A program made the translations under genes and the position numbers. From the IMG/VR virus record IMGVR_UViG_3300038409_000057, positions 1 to 25,380 of that record: a stretch of 25,380 nt of DNA; one strand, written 5' to 3'. Below are positions 2,244 through 16,073 of the stretch, in pieces. Under the pieces are notes generated by a model, which had not been told where the DNA came from, searched no databases, and worked only from the letters and a program-made list of their open reading frames with translations. Every line of letters starts with the position of its first letter. The first letter of the stretch is position 1. This stretch comes from a virus.

Positions 2244-2337
2244 CGAAACTACGGGCTTCCTGGTGTGGCTGGCGCTGATGCTGGGCGCGTGGCTGTGGAT
2301 CAAGCTGAACTGGGGAAGTAGACGCCGGAATGACTGA
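2236..2337 (+). CDS. 33-residue single-pass membrane mini-protein
   Basis: The GTG at 2236 follows an AGAAGG site (2225-2230) with a 5-base spacer. The start overlaps the end of the previous membrane-protein gene, and the TGA at 2335-2337 overlaps the terminase start at 2330. The product is one hydrophobic helix (residues ~8-25, LVWLALMLGAWLWI) with a short acidic N-terminus and a basic tail ending SRRRND. The longer frame upstream (from 1981) is a shadow of the 109-residue gene. The pairing with that gene suggests they act together at the membrane. The function is not known. Confidence 0.6.
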   Translation: MDSETTGFLVWLALMLGAWLWIKLNWGSRRRND

Positions 2338-3913
2338 ACTCATCGCTGAACAATTCGGCCAGCTGCGCGAAGCCGTCCTGGTGGACTGCCCCGAGGGCTT
2401 CCAGATTTTCTACCACCTGATCCACAACCGGCCACTGCCCGAACACGGGCGCCGCTGGATCCACGCGGCGTATGAGGCAAGGCGGCGCGGCCGCGGCTTC
2501 ATGGCTAAGGGGTTCCGGGGTTCGACGAAGACCACCATCTTCACCAACACCCTGATGGCCTACCAGATCGGGCTGTACCCGCGCAAGACAAGGATGCTGA
2601 TTCAGGCCGTGGACGACTCGGCCAACGACAATACGGCCCTGGTAGCGGCCACCATCCAGCACAACCCGGCCTGGAAAGCCCTTTTTCCGAACGTGGTCCC
2701 GGACGAAAAGGCGGGCTGGGGGGCGCAGGGTTACGAGGTCTACGACACGACGGTGGACTATGGGGAGTGGACGCGCACCAAGACGCCCAACCCCACCTTC
2801 GTCGGCTACGGAATACACAACTCCAGCATCGTCGGCAAGCACCCGTCGGGCGAGTTGTTCATCGACGACATACACGACGAGAAGAACACAGTTTCGGACA
2901 AAGAGATTGGCCGCGTCAAGCGCGAGCTGTACGCCAACGTCATGCCAACCCGCACGCCCAACTACCCGTGGACGATTGTCAGTTACACGCCCTGGACGGA
3001 CAACGACGCCTACACCGTTCTGGAAGCCAGCGGCGAGTTCGAGATGATGTCCACGCCGGTTTACGAAGAGGCCGAGGCGGGCGATGCGGGCGCCGAGTGG
3101 TACGCCGAAATTGACAAATGGGTGATACCCGCCTGGCCGGCCGGGATGCCACTGGAGCGCATCGAGCAGGAGCGGCGCACGGGCCAGAGCTACGACGGCG
3201 GCCTGGAGTTCGCGCGCATGTACCTGCTAGACCTCGCGGCCGCGCAGAACCGCATCATATCTTACCAGAACTACCCGGAGGATCTGATCGAAGTGACCTG
3301 GCCGACCACCGGCGGCGTGGACTACGCCAGTGTGTACGACGCCGCAAAGCGCGGGCAGGCCGGCCAGTCTCATTTCGCAATGGCCTACGTGGCCGAACTG
3401 CCCGATGGCGGGCTGGTGGTGGTGGACGGCGTTCTGGAGCAGTGCAGCCAGGTGGCGGCCGAGAACTATGTTTACCGGGCGCAGATGTCGTTCCCGCAGT
3501 GGCGCACATCCAGCATCGAGTCGGACGGCAAGGGCGGCGACTTCATCCAGACCATCGCCCGCCGCCCGGAGATACTGTATGCGCCTCACCCGTCGCGCGA
3601 GCTGGGCAACATGGCGAAGGAAGACCGGCACGCGAAGCATCTTGGGGCCTGGATGGGAAACGGGCGGGTCAAGATTTCGACGAAGCGCAGCAAGTTCCTT
3701 GACAAGCTGCGGAACTACTGCAACGCCTTCCCGAACGTGGGCAAGAACCATCCGGGGGCTGATGCGGCCGACGCGGTGTACGTGGCCCTGCTGGACTTGC
3801 AGCACCATCTGTACCTGCCCAAGCCGCAGAACGAACTGCCACTGTCACGCTTCTACTCACAAAAGAAAGCCAGTAAGAACCCCTGGTCCGCGCTGGCAAA
3901 GGTTGGACAATGA
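2330..3913 (+). CDS. terL: Terminase large subunit (packaging ATPase/nuclease)
   Basis: This is the DNA-packaging motor: it cuts concatemeric DNA and drives it through the portal with ATP. It is 527 residues long, a normal length for the family. The N-terminal ATPase has a Walker A-like loop at residues 60-68 (KGFRGSTKT, a variant P-loop) and a Walker B at about 175-184 (ELFIDDIHDE). The C-terminal RNase H-like nuclease shows the expected acidic residues: Asp331 (GGVD), Glu397/Asp399 (IESDGKGGD) and Asp478/Asp481 (HPGADAADA). The gene is coupled to the portal gene by an ATGA overlap. I cannot fix the packaging type (cos or headful) from sequence alone. Confidence 0.95.
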   Translation: MTELIAEQFGQLREAVLVDCPEGFQIFYHLIHNRPLPEHGRRWIHAAYEARRRGRGFMAKGFRGSTKTTIFTNTLMAYQIGLYPRKTRMLIQAVDDSANDNTALVAATIQHNPAWKALFPNVVPDEKAGWGAQGYEVYDTTVDYGEWTRTKTPNPTFVGYGIHNSSIVGKHPSGELFIDDIHDEKNTVSDKEIGRVKRELYANVMPTRTPNYPWTIVSYTPWTDNDAYTVLEASGEFEMMSTPVYEEAEAGDAGAEWYAEIDKWVIPAWPAGMPLERIEQERRTGQSYDGGLEFARMYLLDLAAAQNRIISYQNYPEDLIEVTWPTTGGVDYASVYDAAKRGQAGQSHFAMAYVAELPDGGLVVVDGVLEQCSQVAAENYVYRAQMSFPQWRTSSIESDGKGGDFIQTIARRPEILYAPHPSRELGNMAKEDRHAKHLGAWMGNGRVKISTKRSKFLDKLRNYCNAFPNVGKNHPGADAADAVYVALLDLQHHLYLPKPQNELPLSRFYSQKKASKNPWSALAKVGQ

Positions 3914-6729: not shown

Positions 6730-7103
6730 GTGCAGAAGGGCAAGCGATTACACCCGAAGAAATCGACGCCATGCCGGCGGGCCGGGAGATGGACGGGCTG
6801 GTGGCCGAGGGCGTGTACGGATACAAACGGGAGGGGGAACGTAGGTGGAACACCGGAAAGGGATTCTGGGTAAATGACATTCCTCGCTACAGCACCGACA
6901 TTGCGTCGGCGTGGTTCGTTGTGAATAAACTCTACCTGGTGGTCGGAAGAGTACATCCGGGAGATCCAAACTCTCTATGGGTTGCGACTCGCGGGTGGGA
7001 CTCCTATGATGGGCGCGACTCCGTAGGCGAAACCGCCCCGCTCGCCATCTGCCGCGCCGCCCTCAAGTTGTGCATGAAGAAAGCGAATGACTCAACCCAC
7101 TAA
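6726..7103 (+). CDS. Phage ABA-sandwich domain protein
   Basis: This is a 125-residue protein. The N-terminal pattern ITPEEIDAMPAGREMDGLVAE, then PRYSTDIASAWFVV and a C-terminal PLAICRAALKL helix, match the small phage proteins I know as the ABA-sandwich family (helix-strand-helix units). Their function is unknown. They are found scattered through phage genomes rather than tied to one complex. It overlaps the giant gene by 17 bases and the previous gene by ATGA, so it is translated within the same operon. Family assignment is from memory of the pattern, without a search. Confidence 0.8.
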   Translation: MSAEGQAITPEEIDAMPAGREMDGLVAEGVYGYKREGERRWNTGKGFWVNDIPRYSTDIASAWFVVNKLYLVVGRVHPGDPNSLWVATRGWDSYDGRDSVGETAPLAICRAALKLCMKKANDSTH

Positions 7104-10100
7104 GGCAGGACAGAAAGCAAAGGGCGGGGGCCGCATTGCGCGCGGCTCTTCTCAGGCCACGCAGGCGGACAGACCAGCGCGGCCCGCAACCCGCCCTCCG
7201 GGAGGGCCGCCACGTCTGGGCAAGCTGACGACGAAGAAGCCGGGCACGATTCGCACGGGCGGGCCGGGCGGCGAGGCTGGCCCGGTGTCAGGCGGCCCGC
7301 CTCCGCGCCGCACGATCGGGACGACCGCGCCTTCCGCCTGGGTGGACAAGCCCATCGGGTACGGCGATTCTGTGTCCGTCGAAGACGCGCCCAACTATGA
7401 GAAGCTGACGGCCAGCGAGAAGTGGCTGACAAACTTCCTGCCCGGTATCACGTCGGCAAAAAACCCTCTGAACGCAGGCGAGACTGTGGGCGAGGCCCTG
7501 GAGAAATTCAACGCCAGTCCGGTCGGCAAGGTGCTGGGCTGGCTGGATGTGGGCGCGGAAGCGGCCGAGAGGCTGGTGGGTTTGGGATGGCAGGCGATAC
7601 AGGCCAACCAGGCCGGGCCGGAAGCGAAGGCGCAGTTCGACAAGGACTGGAAGGCGGCCTGGTATGCCGGTTCGTCGGCCTACGACGTGGCGCCGCTGGG
7701 CATTGACTTCCAGAACCCTTTCACGTTCGAGGAGATGGAAGGCGGAGCACCGAAGGAACTCCAAGACGTTCCGGGAGCCGTGCTGGGTGATATTGCCCGC
7801 CGTATTCCGGTAAGGTTCTGGTTCGACCACGACGCGCCCGGCACGGACGCCCTCATAGCGTCTCGTAAGCGCATCCGCGAACTGGTGGCAGGAGGACTGT
7901 CGTACTCGGAAGCCAACCAGGCGGCGCGCGAAGAGATGTACAACAGCCAGGGCGCACTGGCTCTGAGGATGCAGACGCGCGACGCCATCGGCCACATGGT
8001 ACTTGACCCCATCAACCTGCTGGGCGAGTTCTTCAAGCCAATTGAGTTCTTACAGGCCAGGCGGCTGAAAATCCTTTCCACCGCAATCAAGGAAGAAGGC
8101 GTTCTGGAGGCGGCAGCGGCAGTGACAAGGCTGGAGGGAACGGCGCAGGCCGTCGCAGACCTGTCGAAGCTGGACGCGGGCGCACTCATCAAGGCGGCCG
8201 GCGACCTGCCCGACCCTGACGACGCGGCCCGGCTGGCGAAGGCCATCGAAGAAGCGCAGGCAGCGGGCGACCTGGCGAAGGTGGGCGAGTTGGGCGGAGA
8301 AGTGCAGAAGGCGGCGAAGGTTGGCCTGGAGGCGGCCGAAGAACAACTCAGACTGGCGCAGAAGTTCAAGCTGACGCGCGGCCAGCAGTTCGTCATCTGG
8401 GCTACCGGCGGCCTGGACGTAAACAAGACCGGCTGGCAGAAGTGGAACCCGTTTGCCCTGACGCCGGCGGCGAAGGCACAGGAGTACGTCGGCATCATCC
8501 GCGAAAACATCAACTCGCGCCTTCTGCCTAACGCGATTCTGCCGGACGGAACTTTCGACATCAACAAGGTCGCCCGTTCCATTCAACGCGCCGCGGACGG
8601 CACGATGTCTAAAGAACTCGGCCATATGATCGCCACGCTGGAAGGCCAGCACGTCCGGGGCGTCCTGCAGCAGATAGGGCAGGAAGTGGGTGGAGTGGCA
8701 CGCGCGTACAACGCCGCCGGAGACTTCGAGCGCCCGATGGCGAAAATCGTCTCGGGCGCGCTGGGCGACAATCTGGTGAACATCGTGCGCCGGGCCGAAA
8801 AGGGCGAGCACGCCGCCATATTCAAAGAGTTCGTTTCCAAGCTGTCGCAGGTGCCCGACGCCCGAAAGATGTTTGACGCCTTGCTGGCCTCCAGGGAAAT
8901 GACGCCCGCAAACTTCACGCCCGACATGCTGAGGTCACTGCTGCTGACTTTCTCGGGCGACGGCATGGCGGCAGCAGACAGCACCCTGGCCGTGGCGAAA
9001 ATTGGCGACATGATTGCCGAGGCCTCGATGCGGCAGGCGGTGCTGCGGTTCGGCGTGCAGCAGCGCGGCCTGGTGGAGGGCATGGCCCATCTGTTGAAGC
9101 AGGCCGAGACGATGGCATTCCTGAAACTCAACCCGGTTTACCCGGTTCGGAACTTCATCAACAACGTCTTCACCATGTTTGCGCGCGGGACGCTGGGCGG
9201 AATCACACCCGACTTCATCAAGCACTTCTGGAAGGCGGAGGGGTTTGTTCCGGCCCGCCTGCTGGAGGGCATTGGGCCGGCGGGCGACCTGGCCGCCGAC
9301 ATCGCCAGAGTAGGCGACGCCGAGAGGATCGCCATTCTGTCGGGGCAGCTCTCCCCGATGGTGACGGGCGGCGACGAAGCGGCCCGCATCCTGCACGAGG
9401 CTACCAGCTTCAAGAGCGGCTGGGTGCAGAAGGTGAGCGACAGGCTGGGCGACATCAACCGCAACGGCTGGGGATTCTCGCAGCTCTCACACAAAATCGA
9501 GCGCCTGTCGTCCGAGAACGCCATGACTACCTTCTACATTCGCGGCAAGGGAATGTTCGGCAAGGTGGGCGGTGGAATCGTTCAGCGCGTGGTGGACTTC
9601 AACCCGAAACTGGCAAACGAATTAGGTAGCGACCTGGCTAAACAAATTCAAGGGATAGTCGAAGACGCAGGCCTGAACCCGGCCAAACTGGACGCGGCCA
9701 TTTCGTCGGGCGCCGACCTGAACATCTCGGGCGCAAGGCTGCGAAGCCTGGTAGAGAAGCAGTTCGGGCGTCCAGTGTCGAACGTGATACCGGATGAGTT
9801 CTTTGAGCCGTTCGAGCAGAAGATGGTTGATGCGCTGAGGTCGCGCGACACCGGAAAGATAGACGGCGTTTTCGACGAGATGAGGGATGCGCTGGACAAC
9901 CACGTTGCCGGGATGCACGACGACGCCCTGAAAACGCTTTCGGACGAGGCGCTGGCCCGCGTCAAGACCGAGGGGCCGGGCGCGTTTGCGAAGGTGTGGG
10001 GCGACTCGATGGATGAGTGGTACGGCGGCATCGTGCGCTACGACATGGACGCCGCCAAGACCGCCGAGGCCATCAAGCAGGGCGTCAACCCGGAGCTGTC

Positions 10101-13100
10101 CAACATCGAATGGAACAAGTTCATGCGCGAAGGCGAGCGGTACTGGGGCCGCCAGTGGGACAGGCTGGACGCGCGCATGTCGGGCATGGCGAAGGGCGCG
10201 CAGGAAGCCGGTCTGAAATTGCAGGCCGGGCGAGTGCAGCAGACGTTCAAGCAGTGGCGCGGTGACTGGCAGGACTTCTTCAAGACGCGCGAGAAGATGT
10301 ACAGCCAGTTCTTCGAGGCGAAGCTGAAAGGCGAAACGCCGAAGATGGAGTGGGACACCATCACCGCCACATTGGACGAGAAATATGCAAAGGCACTGGC
10401 GAACGAAGACGCCTACGCCAAAGCTATCGACGAAGCGGTGGCCGTGCTGCTGCCCGACCAGCAGGCCGAGATGTTCCTGGCCTGGAGAGGGCGGGTGAAC
10501 CAGCTCAGGCGGACAGACAAAGAGATGGTGGTTGCGTTCCGCAAGAAGATTCGCGGCCTGAAGCCTGAGCAGGTGCAGGCTGAGTACGCAAAGCACTGGC
10601 AGACCCGCATCCAGGGCCAGATCGCGCTGTGGCAGGAGGAGCGCATGGGCGCGGCGGCGATGGGCGGCAACCCGGTCGCACAGCAGGCTTACGCTCAGGC
10701 CACCCAGCAGGCCGCCGGAGAGCCGCCCATCATGGCGAGGCTCAGGCGAGCCGAGGCCGTCAAGGCCGGCGCAACGCCCGAAGAAGCGGCTCGGATGAAG
10801 CAGCTTTCGCAGGTGGAAGAAGTCCTGCCGAAAGACATCTCGAAGGTGCCGCGCGACCAGCTGCCCGAAGAGTTGTCGCGCGAGATCGAGTACACCGCAA
10901 AGCGGATGTCCGAAGAGCTGTCGATGGGCGAAGGGCCGCTGTCTCTCCGGTACACGGACGTGGAAGGCGGCGCGGAAGTCACGCGGTTCCAGCGCACGCC
11001 ATCGACCAACCCTGACTGGTTTCAGGAGTTTGGCGCAGAGTTTGGCTACACCAAGAAGCAGGTGAGGGATGCGCTGGATAAGGTGATTGCCGACGCGGGC
11101 GCGGACGTGGACAAGCGCGGCGGTCAGATCATCAAACGGCTAAAGACCTACATCAAGGACGAGATGATGAAGCCCGACCCGCTGACGGGCGAGCCCCCGA
11201 ACCAGCGGGTGATTGAGATGCTGCAGGCCCAGACCGGCCCGGCGGCGCAGGCGGCCAGGGCGGACGAGCTTCGCGCCCTGGAAGAAGGCATACTGGCGAG
11301 AGGCGCTGGGGCGCCGCAGGCCCCGCCCCGACAGTCCAGCTTCGTCCCCGACTCGGAAGTGCTGTTCAAGCCGGAGATGTACGCCGGGACGGGCCTCGAC
11401 CAGCTGGTGTACACGCGCGGCCATGAAGTGCTGGACATGATGAAGGCCGAGGGCATGAAGATGCTGGACGAGCCGCCCTTGAAGTGGAAGAACCTTACGC
11501 CCGACCAGCAGGCAGGCCTGCAACGCTACTTTGAGACAGTGAAAGGCAGTTTTGCCGATGCCAGGTATGCAAGCACCCGGTTTGCCGAGTTTGGCCGTGA
11601 TAGCGCCTTACTCAACTACAACAGGCGCTACAACTACAACACCTGGTTTGGGATGGTCTTTCCTTTCGAGTTCTGGACGACACAGAGCGCGTTCAAGTGG
11701 GCGCTGCACAGCATCGACCGGCCAGGTATGCTGGCCGCCTACTACCGCATCCGCAAGTTCATGGAGACGGCCTACAACCCGCGCGAAGGGCTGCCCTCGC
11801 GCCTCAAGGGAACGTTCCGCCTGAATTTGCCGTTCCTGCCGGACTGGATGCAGGACCAGATATTCGTTGACCCGATCCGGGTGGCGCTGCCGTTCGACGG
11901 CTGGTTTGGCGCAGCAGAGCAGGCCGAGCGCCAGATGGTGAGCGACGAGGGCAAGGCAAATCGAAAATTACAGGAGCTTCTGAACGACGGCGACATTACC
12001 CAGCAGGACTACAACCAGGCCATTCAGACCAGGCAGGGCGAGGTATGGGAGAGGGCGATCGCGCTGGCCGAGCAGGACGACCAGGAAAACCGCCTGGACC
12101 CGTTCGACTTCGTGGGCATTATGAGCGCGCCGCACGCGCCCCTGGTGTGGGCCCACAACGCCCTGCGCGGCCGGGAGCCGATACCGGGCGCCGTTCTGCC
12201 CATCACGAACACGCTGGGAAGCATTTACGGCGCGCTGGGCATTGACCCGGCCGGGCCGCTGAACCCGGAAGCCGCAATCCGCAAGCACTACGGCCTGCAT
12301 CCGTTTAATAAGTGGGATGACTATTATACGGAACGTCAATTGACGAACCTTGTAGCCGAGGGCGTGATAAGCGCCGCCGACGCCCGGCTGGCGATGGTGA
12401 AGCACGAGGGGCCGGCCTGGGAAGAGGCCTACCGCCGAACCTGGACAGAGAGAAGCGGCGGCCCGGTTGGAGCGTTTCTGGGCCTGCTGGGTATGCCGCC
12501 AAAGGCGTACCCGGAAGGCGAAGAGTACCTGCGCCAGTCGAAGGACGACTACGAAGCGGCCTGGGACGAATACAACGGCATCCAGGATGCCTACGAAGCG
12601 AAACTGGCCGAGTTCGGCCCCAACATTCAGGCTGTGGCCGAAGTGTACTTCAAGCTGGAGGGCGAGCAGAAGAAGGCGTACTACGACGCGCACCCGGAGA
12701 TAAAGGCGTACCTGGCCTACGAGAAGCAATTCGACCAGCAGTACCCGGAAGGCGTGTACCAGGCCACCATCGGGAAGTTCGTGGACGACCACCCCGGCTA
12801 TGAAGAGCGGCTGGCGCTGTTTGACAAGCCCGAGGACCGCCTGCGGAAGTTCATCAGCGATGAGGTCTGGAACACATGGAACGACCTGCCCAAACTGACG
12901 CAGGACGAAATCAAGGAGCAGCTGGGCGATGAGTTCACCGAGGGGTTCCTGTACGCCGAGAGCAACAACCGCAAGAACGTCACCCCGGAGACGCTGGGCG
13001 TGTGGCTGAAGCTGATGGGCGGCGAGAACCCCGGCTACATCGATACGCCGTACCAGAGGCTGCTGACCCTGACGGATCCGCAGGTGGCCTGGTCGGTGGA

Positions 13101-13665
13101 CAACTTCTACAAGTCGCGCGAGCAGATGTTCCCAAATTACTCCGAGCTGTCTATGGAGTTCGGGGCAATCTCAAAGGATGCGCGAGTGAACGTCGCGCCG
13201 TCGAACTATAACGCCCTGTTGCAGCAGTACATCCAGCTTCCGAAGGGGACGGGCGAGCGGTCCCGGTTCCGCCAGGAGCACCCGGAGTTTTCTGCCTACC
13301 TGGACACCGACAAGCCGTTCACTCGCTCGGCCCGCTCCGTGTGGCTGGATCGCCACCCCGAGTACCGCCAATACCTGAACTGGCGCACGGACTGGATGCT
13401 GCGTAACCCGCAGGCGGCGATGGCGATTACGGACAAGCCGCCCGAAGGCGTAGAAGAAGCCGCGCAGGGGCCGCTGGGCGCGCCGGGCTTCTCAAAGGAC
13501 GAATGGCGCAGCCAACTTGGATGGCCGCTTCTGAATTTGATTGAGGATTTTGCGAGGGATGAGCCACTTCCAGACGTTGCGCGGGAAGAACTTGAGAAAT
13601 ACGCCGAACGTTACGGATTCAGTAACGCCGAAGCACTGGCCGAATACATTGCGGCCTCGCCATGA
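7087..13665 (+). CDS. Giant 2192-residue protein, probably an internal virion protein
   Basis: At about 240 kDa this is by far the largest gene here. Residues 1-~85 are basic, Gly/Pro-rich and disordered. Then come long Ala/Glu/Lys-rich helical stretches. Two segments recall large environmental-phage virion or polyvalent proteins: LKLNPVYPVRNFINN (from residue 679) and GMVFPFEFWTTQSAFKWAL (from about 1522). The C-terminal third (about 1800-2130) carries HPE-type repeats. I see no lysozyme, protease, RNA polymerase or ADP-ribosyltransferase motif and no clear membrane span. Its place between portal and capsid genes fits an ejected inner-head protein. The start at 7087 overlaps the previous gene by 17 bases and has an AG-rich ribosome site. 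A single intact frame over 6.5 kb argues for strong selection. Confidence 0.85.
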   Translation: MTQPTKAGQKAKGGGRIARGSSQATQADRPARPATRPPGGPPRLGKLTTKKPGTIRTGGPGGEAGPVSGGPPPRRTIGTTAPSAWVDKPIGYGDSVSVEDAPNYEKLTASEKWLTNFLPGITSAKNPLNAGETVGEALEKFNASPVGKVLGWLDVGAEAAERLVGLGWQAIQANQAGPEAKAQFDKDWKAAWYAGSSAYDVAPLGIDFQNPFTFEEMEGGAPKELQDVPGAVLGDIARRIPVRFWFDHDAPGTDALIASRKRIRELVAGGLSYSEANQAAREEMYNSQGALALRMQTRDAIGHMVLDPINLLGEFFKPIEFLQARRLKILSTAIKEEGVLEAAAAVTRLEGTAQAVADLSKLDAGALIKAAGDLPDPDDAARLAKAIEEAQAAGDLAKVGELGGEVQKAAKVGLEAAEEQLRLAQKFKLTRGQQFVIWATGGLDVNKTGWQKWNPFALTPAAKAQEYVGIIRENINSRLLPNAILPDGTFDINKVARSIQRAADGTMSKELGHMIATLEGQHVRGVLQQIGQEVGGVARAYNAAGDFERPMAKIVSGALGDNLVNIVRRAEKGEHAAIFKEFVSKLSQVPDARKMFDALLASREMTPANFTPDMLRSLLLTFSGDGMAAADSTLAVAKIGDMIAEASMRQAVLRFGVQQRGLVEGMAHLLKQAETMAFLKLNPVYPVRNFINNVFTMFARGTLGGITPDFIKHFWKAEGFVPARLLEGIGPAGDLAADIARVGDAERIAILSGQLSPMVTGGDEAARILHEATSFKSGWVQKVSDRLGDINRNGWGFSQLSHKIERLSSENAMTTFYIRGKGMFGKVGGGIVQRVVDFNPKLANELGSDLAKQIQGIVEDAGLNPAKLDAAISSGADLNISGARLRSLVEKQFGRPVSNVIPDEFFEPFEQKMVDALRSRDTGKIDGVFDEMRDALDNHVAGMHDDALKTLSDEALARVKTEGPGAFAKVWGDSMDEWYGGIVRYDMDAAKTAEAIKQGVNPELSNIEWNKFMREGERYWGRQWDRLDARMSGMAKGAQEAGLKLQAGRVQQTFKQWRGDWQDFFKTREKMYSQFFEAKLKGETPKMEWDTITATLDEKYAKALANEDAYAKAIDEAVAVLLPDQQAEMFLAWRGRVNQLRRTDKEMVVAFRKKIRGLKPEQVQAEYAKHWQTRIQGQIALWQEERMGAAAMGGNPVAQQAYAQATQQAAGEPPIMARLRRAEAVKAGATPEEAARMKQLSQVEEVLPKDISKVPRDQLPEELSREIEYTAKRMSEELSMGEGPLSLRYTDVEGGAEVTRFQRTPSTNPDWFQEFGAEFGYTKKQVRDALDKVIADAGADVDKRGGQIIKRLKTYIKDEMMKPDPLTGEPPNQRVIEMLQAQTGPAAQAARADELRALEEGILARGAGAPQAPPRQSSFVPDSEVLFKPEMYAGTGLDQLVYTRGHEVLDMMKAEGMKMLDEPPLKWKNLTPDQQAGLQRYFETVKGSFADARYASTRFAEFGRDSALLNYNRRYNYNTWFGMVFPFEFWTTQSAFKWALHSIDRPGMLAAYYRIRKFMETAYNPREGLPSRLKGTFRLNLPFLPDWMQDQIFVDPIRVALPFDGWFGAAEQAERQMVSDEGKANRKLQELLNDGDITQQDYNQAIQTRQGEVWERAIALAEQDDQENRLDPFDFVGIMSAPHAPLVWAHNALRGREPIPGAVLPITNTLGSIYGALGIDPAGPLNPEAAIRKHYGLHPFNKWDDYYTERQLTNLVAEGVISAADARLAMVKHEGPAWEEAYRRTWTERSGGPVGAFLGLLGMPPKAYPEGEEYLRQSKDDYEAAWDEYNGIQDAYEAKLAEFGPNIQAVAEVYFKLEGEQKKAYYDAHPEIKAYLAYEKQFDQQYPEGVYQATIGKFVDDHPGYEERLALFDKPEDRLRKFISDEVWNTWNDLPKLTQDEIKEQLGDEFTEGFLYAESNNRKNVTPETLGVWLKLMGGENPGYIDTPYQRLLTLTDPQVAWSVDNFYKSREQMFPNYSELSMEFGAISKDARVNVAPSNYNALLQQYIQLPKGTGERSRFRQEHPEFSAYLDTDKPFTRSARSVWLDRHPEYRQYLNWRTDWMLRNPQAAMAITDKPPEGVEEAAQGPLGAPGFSKDEWRSQLGWPLLNLIEDFARDEPLPDVAREELEKYAERYGFSNAEALAEYIAASP
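12670..13400 (+). repeat. HPE-type protein repeats in the giant protein
   Basis: Four copies of a helical unit with the core H-P-(E/G)-x3-x-(Y/R)-L start at about residues 1869 (AHPEIKAYL), 1902 (DHPGYEERL), 2065 (EHPEFSAYL) and 2090 (RHPEYRQYL). They fall into two pairs spaced 33 and 25 residues apart. Each is preceded by an aromatic or basic helix. The DNA is not conserved between copies, so these are old protein-level repeats and not a recent DNA duplication. Confidence 0.7.
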
Positions 13666-13678
13666 GTGAAAGGAAACG

Positions 13679-13885
13679 ATGGCTAAAACGACCGTAACGC
13701 CCCTTCCTGAATACAGCGCGCCAAGTCTGACACTTGGGGGGCGCGCCGAAGTGCTTCACCCGCCCGACAACCGGCGAATGGACGCAAAAACACGGGCGCT
13801 GTGGGCCGGGATTAGCCTTGCGCTGCGGACAATTGCGGGCGGAATCAACGCGGCGGCTAAGGCGATAGACGCCTTTATTGCATAG
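13679..13885 (+). CDS. Hypothetical 68-residue protein with amphipathic C-terminal helix
   Basis: The ATG at 13679 follows a clean GAAAGGA ribosome site 14 bases after the giant gene's stop. The N-terminal half is Pro-rich and polar. The C-terminal ~30 residues (WAGISLALRTIAGGINAAAK) form a hydrophobic or amphipathic helix that could sit on a membrane or pack against another protein. No family is recognised. It is the last gene before the promoter and RNA unit; its final codons contain the candidate -35 element. Confidence 0.7.
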   Translation: MAKTTVTPLPEYSAPSLTLGGRAEVLHPPDNRRMDAKTRALWAGISLALRTIAGGINAAAKAIDAFIA

Positions 13886-13906
13886 CGGGCGCAATTCCGC
13901 TATAAT
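13878..13906 (+). promoter_or_regulatory. Sigma70-type promoter
   Basis: A perfect TATAAT (13901-13906) is preceded by TTGCAT (13878-13883) with the ideal 17-base spacer. Transcription would begin near 13913. It is the only perfect -10 box I noticed in an intergenic position in this GC-rich window. The -35 is only a half match, and an upstream or activator element cannot be excluded. Confidence 0.7.
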
Positions 13907-13912
13907 GCGGTT

Positions 13913-14060
13913 ACTCCCCCGGAGATAGCATCTCCGGGCCGTCGCCCAGAGCATCGGGCGACCCAACATCATACCCGCCCCTGCCGAAGCGCACAGCCCG
14001 GCGGGGGATGAAGTGGAGCGAAGAGCCCGCTTGAGTAGCAATACTCAGGCGGGCTTTTTT
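13913..14060 (+). ncRNA. Structured RNA of about 148 nt, four hairpins
   Basis: The RNA is bounded by a promoter and an intrinsic terminator and has no open frame. Hairpin 1: 13918-13925 pairs with 13931-13938 (8 bp, loop TAGCA). Hairpin 2: 13941-13947 pairs with 13956-13962 (7 bp, 8-base loop AGAGCATC). Hairpin 3: CATC 13967-13970 with GATG 14007-14010 plus CCCGCC 13974-13979 with GGCGGG 14000-14005, with a small inner TGC/GCA pairing. Hairpin 4 is the terminator, 14024-14055. Three loops carry AGCA. I cannot match it to tRNA, 6S RNA, hammerhead or HDV-like ribozymes. It could be a stand-alone small RNA, a leader or attenuator for the capsid operon, or a packaging-type RNA; only the first two follow from position. 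Confidence 0.65.
14024..14060 (+). terminator. Strong intrinsic terminator
   Basis: A 14-bp stem (14024-14037 with 14042-14055, one G-T pair) is closed by a GCAA tetraloop of the GNRA type and followed by six T (14055-14060, the first in the stem), then CGTTTT. It would end both the small RNA and upstream read-through. As no promoter is seen between it and the scaffold gene at 14141, capsid-operon expression must rely on read-through or antitermination, or on a promoter I cannot see. Confidence 0.88.
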
Positions 14061-14140
14061 CGTTTTCCGGGGCGCGCACGACCGGCAACGGGAGCGCAGA
14101 AAGCGGCGAAAGCCCGCCCCGACAAAGAAAGGAACAAGCA

Positions 14141-14836
14141 ATGCCTGACGAAACGCCGGAGAGCACCCAGGAAAGTACCGAGAGCAAGGCGTCGCCAACG
14201 CCCATCATTTCGGAAAATTCTGGCGGTAGCCAAACTTCGACACCAGACTTTGGGCAGTTCATCGAGCGCCTGGACAGGCTGGAGAAGGCAATCCCCGATA
14301 TGGTCGGCAAGGCCGTTCAGTCCACGAAGGACAAACGGTTCACGCAGCTTGAGAGCTTGATCGGAGACTTCCAGACCATGAGCGAATACCTGAAAGCCGC
14401 GAACGGCGACCCCGCCGTGGCGGCCCGCAACTTCAAGGTAGACCAGCTCCTCAGCCAGCCCGTCAGTGCTTCGCCCGCTTCCGCCGGCAACGGGAGCGCG
14501 AGCGGAGAGCGCAGGGTGAGCCAGGATAAGTCGGACGCGCTGGTGGCAGAGCTTGGGCTTGAAGCCGACGACCCGGTGGTGCAGGAGTGGGGAAACAAGA
14601 AATACCGCTCGGAGGAGCACGCCGAACTTGAGCTGCGCCGGATGGCCGACAAGGCCCGCCGGCAGGCCGGGGCCTCGGGTACGCCCGTGTTCGACGGGCA
14701 GGCGCATCCCGCTCCCGCGAGCGGGAACGTGGAGCAACTTACCAACAATCTCAACCGGCTGATGGAGTCCGGCGCGTCTTCTAAGGACATTGCAGACGCA
14801 CACAAGAAACTACAGGACGCCATGAGCCGAAAGTAG
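14141..14836 (+). CDS. Scaffold-like capsid assembly protein
   Basis: This is a 231-residue, polar, largely helical protein immediately before the major capsid gene, the usual place for a scaffold. The N-terminal ~35 residues are Ser/Thr/Glu-rich and disordered. A coiled-coil-like segment follows (about 36-75, FIERLDRLEKAIPDMV), and the C-terminus is helical and basic (NNLNRLMESGASSKDIADAH and KKLQDAMSRK), as in scaffolds that hold capsid protein by a C-terminal helix. The start has an AAGAAAGGA ribosome site. Function rests on position and composition, not on a family match. Confidence 0.75.
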   Translation: MPDETPESTQESTESKASPTPIISENSGGSQTSTPDFGQFIERLDRLEKAIPDMVGKAVQSTKDKRFTQLESLIGDFQTMSEYLKAANGDPAVAARNFKVDQLLSQPVSASPASAGNGSASGERRVSQDKSDALVAELGLEADDPVVQEWGNKKYRSEEHAELELRRMADKARRQAGASGTPVFDGQAHPAPASGNVEQLTNNLNRLMESGASSKDIADAHKKLQDAMSRK

Positions 14837-14843
14837 GAACGAA

Positions 14844-16073
14844 ATGGCCGTAACAACTACGAGCGTAATGTCCAACTCGGTACAAGCCCTGTACCAGAGT
14901 TCGTTCATTATGAACGCTCGGAAACGCTACATCTACTCTCAACCGCCCCTGGCGTGGGTTCCGCCACAGGGCATCATTGGGCAGGGGAACCGGGGCTCCA
15001 GCCTCAAGATCCCCGTTTACTTCAAGCTGCTTCCGGCAACCTCCGCCCTGTCTCAGACGGCGGATGTGACGCCGGTCACGTCGCGTGACGCGCTGATCAC
15101 CGTCACGCCCGACCTGTACGGCAACGCCGTGCAGCTGGCCGAGAAACTGTCTCTGACAGCGTTCACCGACCAGAGCGCAGTGGCTACGGAGCAGGTGGGC
15201 GACAACGCCGCTGAAACCGTGGACTACCTGGCGCGAACACAGGCCATCGCGGGCGGGGTGGTCATCTACGGCAACGACGCCACATCCCGCGCCACATGCG
15301 GCAGCGCCGACGAAATCGACACCGTGGACGTTCTGTCGGCCATCGCCCACCTGGAAGCGGGCCAGTGCCCGCGCATCCCCGGCTTCGACGCCGCGGGATA
15401 TGCGGCGGTCATTCACCCCGTCACCCTCATGGACTTCGTTGAGGATGCGGTGGTGATCCTGATGGCCGAATACGGCCAGAAGCCAGAGATCATCCTGAAC
15501 GGCGAGGTCGGGATGCACATGGGCGGGGCGCGGCTTCTCAAGAGCAACTTCGCCAAGCGGTTCATCGGCGCGGGCGCGGACAGCGGCGCGATGTCGTCCA
15601 CCACGACCCTGAACGGCGCGGTGAACGCGGGCGCGACCAGCATCATCGTCGCCGCGGACAACGGCGCGACGGCAGGCGAGTACCTGAGCATCGGCACCAT
15701 CGAGTCGGTCGCCAACGGCGAGAACTCGGAAGCCGAAACCGTGCTGGTGACAACGGGCGGGTCCACGACCTACACCGTGACCGGGGCCGGCCCGAACGGC
15801 GGCCTGCTGTACGACCACGACTCGGGCGAGGCCGTGACGGACGCCTACGACGTTCACGCAACCGTGTTCCTGGGCGCCCAGTCCCTCGGCATGGCTCACA
15901 CCAACGAAGACGGCATGAGCCGTGACCCCTACCTTCTGCCTCCCGAAGTGACCGGCCTGTTGAAGCAGTTCAACAGCATGGGCTGGAAGTGGTTCGGCGG
16001 GTTTGGCCGCATCGCAGACTCGCGTCTGTTCCGGGTAGAGCACACCGCCGCCCGACAAATCATCGGGAAATAA
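14844..16073 (+). CDS. Major capsid protein, N4-gp56 family (HK97 fold)
   Basis: This is a 409-residue protein that builds the icosahedral head shell. Hallmarks are the TVTPDLYGNAVQLAEKL segment (about 87-102), the AVIHPVTLMDF segment (about 188-198) and the C-terminal WFGGFGRIADSRLFRVEH (about 383-400), the pattern I know for N4-gp56 capsid proteins. Residues ~243-340 form an inserted Thr/Gly/Ala-rich beta domain (from TTTLNGAVNAGATSI to the YDHDSGEAV region), likely on the outer surface. The ribosome site is AGGA, and the scaffold-like gene ends 7 bases upstream. Confidence 0.9.
   Translation: MAVTTTSVMSNSVQALYQSSFIMNARKRYIYSQPPLAWVPPQGIIGQGNRGSSLKIPVYFKLLPATSALSQTADVTPVTSRDALITVTPDLYGNAVQLAEKLSLTAFTDQSAVATEQVGDNAAETVDYLARTQAIAGGVVIYGNDATSRATCGSADEIDTVDVLSAIAHLEAGQCPRIPGFDAAGYAAVIHPVTLMDFVEDAVVILMAEYGQKPEIILNGEVGMHMGGARLLKSNFAKRFIGAGADSGAMSSTTTLNGAVNAGATSIIVAADNGATAGEYLSIGTIESVANGENSEAETVLVTTGGSTTYTVTGAGPNGGLLYDHDSGEAVTDAYDVHATVFLGAQSLGMAHTNEDGMSRDPYLLPPEVTGLLKQFNSMGWKWFGGFGRIADSRLFRVEHTAARQIIGK

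Follow-up and report, generated by a model that had tools for sequence, protein, structure and literature searches.

The DNA analysed here is a virus record of 25,380 nt, itself a fragment, and we refer to this whole stretch as the window. Between its giant gene and the genes for the scaffold and the capsid lies a gap of 255 nt (13886–14140); by the ORF list, the main genes are flanked by no larger non-coding gap. An earlier note on this DNA had placed a structured RNA unit between the giant gene and the scaffold gene. The region is right, though a 68-residue ORF that follows the giant gene had been left out. The features are as follows.

2330–3913: terminase large subunit gene (phrog_38)
Between the terminase large subunit gene and the giant gene: portal-like gene
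7087–13665, + strand: giant gene encoding a 2192-residue protein (ORF list), the query that led to the phage family
13679–13885, + strand: 68-residue ORF after the giant gene (ORF list), with the −35 element inside its 3′ end
13878–13906, + strand: sigma70-type promoter, TTGCAT-N17-TATAAT, predicted start about 13913
13914–13962, + strand: H1+H2 element, CUCCCCCGGAGAUAGCAUCUCCGGGCCGUCGCCC...GGGCGAC, homolog of an NYN-linked RNA of Chloroflexota
13918–13938, + strand: hairpin H1
13941–13962, + strand: hairpin H2
about 13978–14008, + strand: hairpin H3, a phage-specific extension not present in host copies
about 14018–14067, + strand: H4, a strong intrinsic terminator with the U tract TTTTTTCGTTTT
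14141–14836, + strand: scaffold-type protein gene (ORF list), first after the RNA unit and directly before the major capsid gene
14844–16073, + strand: major capsid protein gene (phrog_1357 major head protein, E 3.7e-40)

About 74 nt separate the U tract from the scaffold start. A small ORF resembling the 68-residue ORF occupies the same place in two related loci, L003 and L002; the likeness to the L003 counterpart was judged by eye, and tblastn gave no significant match.

The promoter is the best in the window. A TATAAT promoter with 17-base spacing had been proposed and is present: the −35 element TTGCAT (13878–13883) and the −10 element TATAAT (13901–13906) are 17 nt apart, TATAAT occurs once on the + strand in 25,380 nt, and the promoter ranks first of 25,380 positions by sigma70 score, on a general sigma70 matrix. 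A simple promoter scan overlooked it because the −35 element matches at only three of six bases.

The transcript predicted from this promoter would be highly structured. About 150 nt of non-coding RNA lie between promoter and terminator end, and the stretch 13912–14064 folds at −87.1 kcal/mol (z −8.4; none of 200 shuffles reached a value that low). With the terminator removed the fold is still stable (z −4.4; none of 300 shuffles that low). The opposite strand folds too (z −5.3), and the strand is therefore assigned from the promoter and the terminator. At about −30 kcal/mol, H4, here delimited as 14020–14066, is the strongest terminator in the window and the sole strong intrinsic terminator among its late genes. 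The structured non-coding block with a strong terminator that the earlier note described is thus there, and so are hairpins H1, H2 and H3; the fourth hairpin, which had been counted separately from the terminator, is the terminator itself. Computation establishes the promoter and terminator sequences and the RNA structure, and from these the unit is probably transcribed.

No family in Rfam matched the unit at gathering or relaxed thresholds (weak E-value matches lay far below them), in keeping with the earlier statement that it could be matched to no familiar RNA class. A tRNA/tmRNA search found none, and BLAST of the unit region against phages and plasmids gave short weak matches only.

The window belongs to a family of related phages. 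The giant protein led to a first relative, Podoviridae sp. ctptF532 (MW202608), and alignment-based searches gave 18, 32 and 45 viral-contig loci, partly overlapping; a further member, L022, lies on a contig labelled as a Chloroflexi MAG. Single-protein searches of viral contigs with MCP and TerL queries found no relatives. Across some 60 related phages, a sigma70-like promoter lies almost always right before the scaffold gene. It scores at p < 0.05 against the rest of its own contig in 24 of 28 loci tested, and is the best or near-best of its contig (combined p 3e-37 over the 28 loci). In most relatives the −10 element stands a few tens of nucleotides 5′ of the scaffold start and there is no RNA. 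A leader with an intrinsic terminator follows the promoter in 16 of 61 de-duplicated loci (L066, which has a poor U tract, was put into this count by eye), and the terminator is always downstream of the promoter. On the giant-protein tree the trait is scattered, with 10 changes, at least nine of them forced.

What recurs in these phages is an arrangement of promoter, leader and terminator, not one RNA, because leader bodies differ and inserts vary within a clade. No conserved leader sequence was found across the family, leader bodies being dissimilar between lineages, and the clade of L022 and L063–L066 holds the promoter and terminator stem constant while the sequence between them varies. A supposedly conserved AAGTGAA motif before the terminators was rejected, as it largely reflects the A-rich arm of bidirectional terminators.

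Several family members show peculiarities of their own. The window's closest relative, L003, carries a different structured RNA of about 295 nt in the same slot (6880–7174). A second family contig, L012, has an RNA before a transketolase gene (11270–11521), and the two RNAs share CCTAATCGAATA..TTCT..GGAACTG and a position before a terminator; neither has an Rfam or BLAST match. L081 (3490–3605) has two tandem terminators before the scaffold gene, with CCTAGACGTARAACGC ahead of each. In L022, L063, L065 and L066 the first transcribed bases, just after the −10 element, include a conserved TATAGTCA that resembles a second −10-like element; such elements cause sigma-dependent pausing at lambdoid late promoters. 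The capsid gene of L020 is apparently split by a group I intron-like stretch (8873–9400), the opposite strand of which carries an endonuclease-like ORF; both were recognized by eye.

The 5′ part of the window's unit, H1+H2, is homologous to a covarying RNA of Chloroflexota that is linked to NYN genes. In a sample of 400 genomes from the phylum of the MAG, positions 13916–13948 of the window are identical at 32 of 33 nt in genome G381, where the copy also lies directly downstream of a promoter and is followed by an NYN gene. Weaker matches in G293 and G163 were rejected as the H2-like part only or probable coding sequence. Of 346 genomes of the class, 9 contain the exact H1 pattern and none the reversed control pattern. 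A covariance model, R1, built from seven host copies with the window left out, scores the window at 45.6 bits; over 750 kb of phage DNA this corresponds to E 2.7e-7, and the runner-up has E 0.22. The other phage loci of those 750 kb gave no convincing match; H1+H2 is seen in one phage of the family only. Among bacteria, R1 matches 26 of 396 sampled class genomes and 5 of 400 in the phylum sample. This RNA element, too, has no matching family in Rfam. Together with the Chloroflexi MAG contig, the host match makes Chloroflexota the probable host of the phage.

Covariation among the copies is strong. In an alignment of 31 copies, which was fitted to R1 and somewhat favours structure, 13 of 20 pairs show changes in both partners (71 cells of this kind), 95.9% of cells are paired, none of 500 shuffles did as well on any of five measures, and slid versions are far worse. 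A seven-row alignment made without structure points in the same direction with less power. The earlier note had looked to homologous phages for compensatory changes; they are found not there but among the host copies, and they include an A–U to U–A swap in H2 that the window alone carries.

The window's copy retains H1 and departs from the host RNA in H2. In host copies the lower stem of H1 varies while its GAUAGCAUC cap is constant, and H2 (GACGCC..GGCGUC) is followed in most hosts by UCUUUU, and therefore reads as a terminator there. A GAUAGCAUC-capped H1 directly after the promoter is true of the window as well (13924), H1 is kept exactly, and the spacing from the −10 element to CCGGAG is 12 nt (11–16 in host copies). 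H2 in the window has the compensated swap and a different loop, and is followed by CCAACA, not UCUUUU. With no U tract and a shorter helix, the terminator half of the host RNA has not been retained; the window instead adds H3 and a separate terminator hairpin.

The ORF downstream of the host RNA encodes an NYN-domain protein (PF01936, E ~1e-11), which matches PADLOC HEC-09 over its full length (E 8e-87). HECs were nominated by guilt by embedding: they are Hma-embedded candidates, of which some are validated and most not (PMC12988326); as a member of a candidate family, HEC-09 has a putative role in defence. An NYN gene or NYN remnant adjoins the RNA in 19 of 26 RNA-bearing genomes: 12 have it downstream in the orientation of the RNA and 7 on the opposite strand, for the most part divergently. 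The remaining 7 genomes have no NYN in the neighbourhood examined, some of these contigs being short. Among 24 control genomes without the RNA, one has the NYN gene (Fisher p 3.6e-7, or 4.7e-6 without the two remnants, kinship ignored). In about half of the RNA-bearing host genomes the RNA precedes a gene as a terminated leader. Several genomes have two tandem RNAs; these, and the copies divergent from the NYN gene, indicate that the RNA forms its own transcription unit there instead of a leader. This favours an RNA that works together with the NYN protein or acts on it. From this linkage, the host RNA is probably a partner, substrate or inhibitor of the NYN nuclease.

The tandem H1–H2 copies, in L136, L139, L141 and L150/L153, lie about 80–425 nt apart; some have separate promoters, and either an NYN gene on the other strand adjoins them or there is none. 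A weak H1–H2 copy in L145 (614–670), with no NYN, is immediately followed by an ORF judged by eye to resemble a DNA methyltransferase.

We tentatively propose to read the unit as a phage RNA gene whose H1+H2 domain mimics the NYN-linked RNA of the host and may act as a decoy for the nuclease. The unit would run from its promoter through a Chloroflexota-derived H1+H2, H3 and an intrinsic terminator, all before the scaffold and capsid genes. During infection the phage would make this short RNA, and the NYN nuclease, a candidate anti-phage protein, would bind its 5′ domain instead of the host RNA; occupied in this way, the nuclease would be blunted. RNA polymerase reading through the terminator would supply scaffold and capsid, and such read-through may set their expression. 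A precedent for the decoy is phage PhiTE, which carries a ToxI-like RNA and escapes ToxIN through its expression (PMC3475682). The proposal draws on the match of the host-built R1 model to the window, the near-identity with G381 downstream of a promoter in both, the covariation and the linkage to NYN. Moreover, no NYN homolog was found in the window or in the other phage loci examined, as expected if the phage carries the RNA alone. The single phage copy counts against it, and a recent functionless capture or a borrowed promoter or leader is possible. So do the missing terminator half of the host RNA in the window, the 7 of 26 RNA-bearing genomes with no NYN nearby, and the host being a probable one.

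The anatomy gives equal support to a conditional leader of the capsid operon, a reading that we hold just as tentatively and that keeps alive the earlier suggestion of an attenuator. The promoter would here make a short terminated transcript, and scaffold and capsid expression would need read-through, either by attenuation or by antitermination as at lambda pR′, whose terminated leader RNA goes by the name 6S RNA; H1+H2 would have been borrowed as a 5′ module that serves control or stability. The near-universal promoter before the scaffold gene (combined p 3e-37 over 28 loci) argues for such a leader, as do the strong terminator between promoter and scaffold in 16 of 61 loci with 9–10 changes on the tree, the clade that keeps both ends and varies the middle, the isolation of H4 among the window's late genes, and the fact that the host RNA is itself a terminated leader in about half of its genomes. 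However, no known Q, Antiterm or NusG family protein (PF06530, PF03589, PF02357) was found in any of 13 terminator-bearing relatives, the window itself being a fragment; no convincing alternative antiterminator pairing was seen by eye in the window; most relatives manage without a terminated leader; and the match of H1+H2 to an NYN-linked RNA is left unexplained. Decoy and attenuator are both possible, because one terminated transcript from the capsid promoter can play the two roles together.

Other readings fit less of the evidence. The complete promoter–RNA–terminator unit, the 7 of 26 host genomes without a nearby NYN and the tandem or divergent copies would suit a trans-acting small RNA that regulates some other target, be it an mRNA or a protein of host or phage, unconnected with NYN. 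We consider this unlikely: nearly all of the conserved part is base-paired, with little single-stranded seed, and the NYN linkage is strong. We also think it improbable that the phage recently captured a host promoter–leader piece in which promoter and terminator insulate or tune the capsid level and the RNA has no function. One occurrence in the phage family and near-identity to one host copy would agree with this, but the compensatory swap and the different H2 loop imply that structure was kept through divergence, and against simple promoter capture the 5′ module is shared although the promoter sequences are unlike. Very improbable, finally, is the packaging or virion RNA (pRNA-like) that the earlier note had also entertained from the location among virion genes. 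We rejected it on its distribution: most relatives have the same capsid and terminase genes without a leader RNA, and the leaders are unrelated in sequence. Of the ideas in the note, a complete small-RNA gene and a phage regulatory RNA gain support, since H1+H2 copies a covarying Chloroflexota RNA with its own promoter; its interpretation as a whole is partly supported.

Parallels for the proposed mimic exist in type III toxin–antitoxin systems. As in ToxIN (PMC3475682, PMC5086642), a bacterial structured RNA and terminator stand before a nuclease gene, and as with the pseudo-ToxI of PhiTE (PMC3475682), only the RNA part is copied in the phage. However, the nuclease here is NYN and not ToxN, no pseudoknot repeat array was seen, the window having a single H1–H2 of two simple hairpins, and the NYN-linked RNA is often divergent from the nuclease gene. 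The lambda pR′ leader (PMC6266700, PMC4604602) shares a promoter, a short non-coding transcript and an intrinsic terminator before late genes. Lambda has Q, whereas no known antiterminator was found among the 13 relatives; the unit here lies in the middle of a virion gene block, and leader bodies vary between relatives. HK022 put RNA (PMC9378689) likewise has two hairpins just downstream of a promoter, but it acts in early operons and has no sequence similarity or Rfam match to the phage unit. An NYN gene adjoining the host RNA is the HEC-09 of PADLOC, a candidate single-gene anti-phage system; HEC-09 is defined by the protein alone, and our literature search on NYN leader RNA in Chloroflexi found no pertinent description of the linked RNA.

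A strongly covarying RNA outside Rfam is thus linked to a nuclease with a candidate role in defence, and the catalogue entry for this nuclease consists of one protein. Should the RNA prove to be a functional component, HEC-09 has so far been read as half of a system. On this wider and more doubtful view, HEC-09 would be a defence module of an NYN nuclease and its own RNA, and the phage RNA alone would be an anti-defence mimic made from the capsid promoter; such a copy would join pseudo-ToxI among the RNA mimics directed against bacterial defence. The promoter before the scaffold gene, with its leader–terminator form in about a quarter of the family, makes late-gene control in Chloroflexota phages testable.
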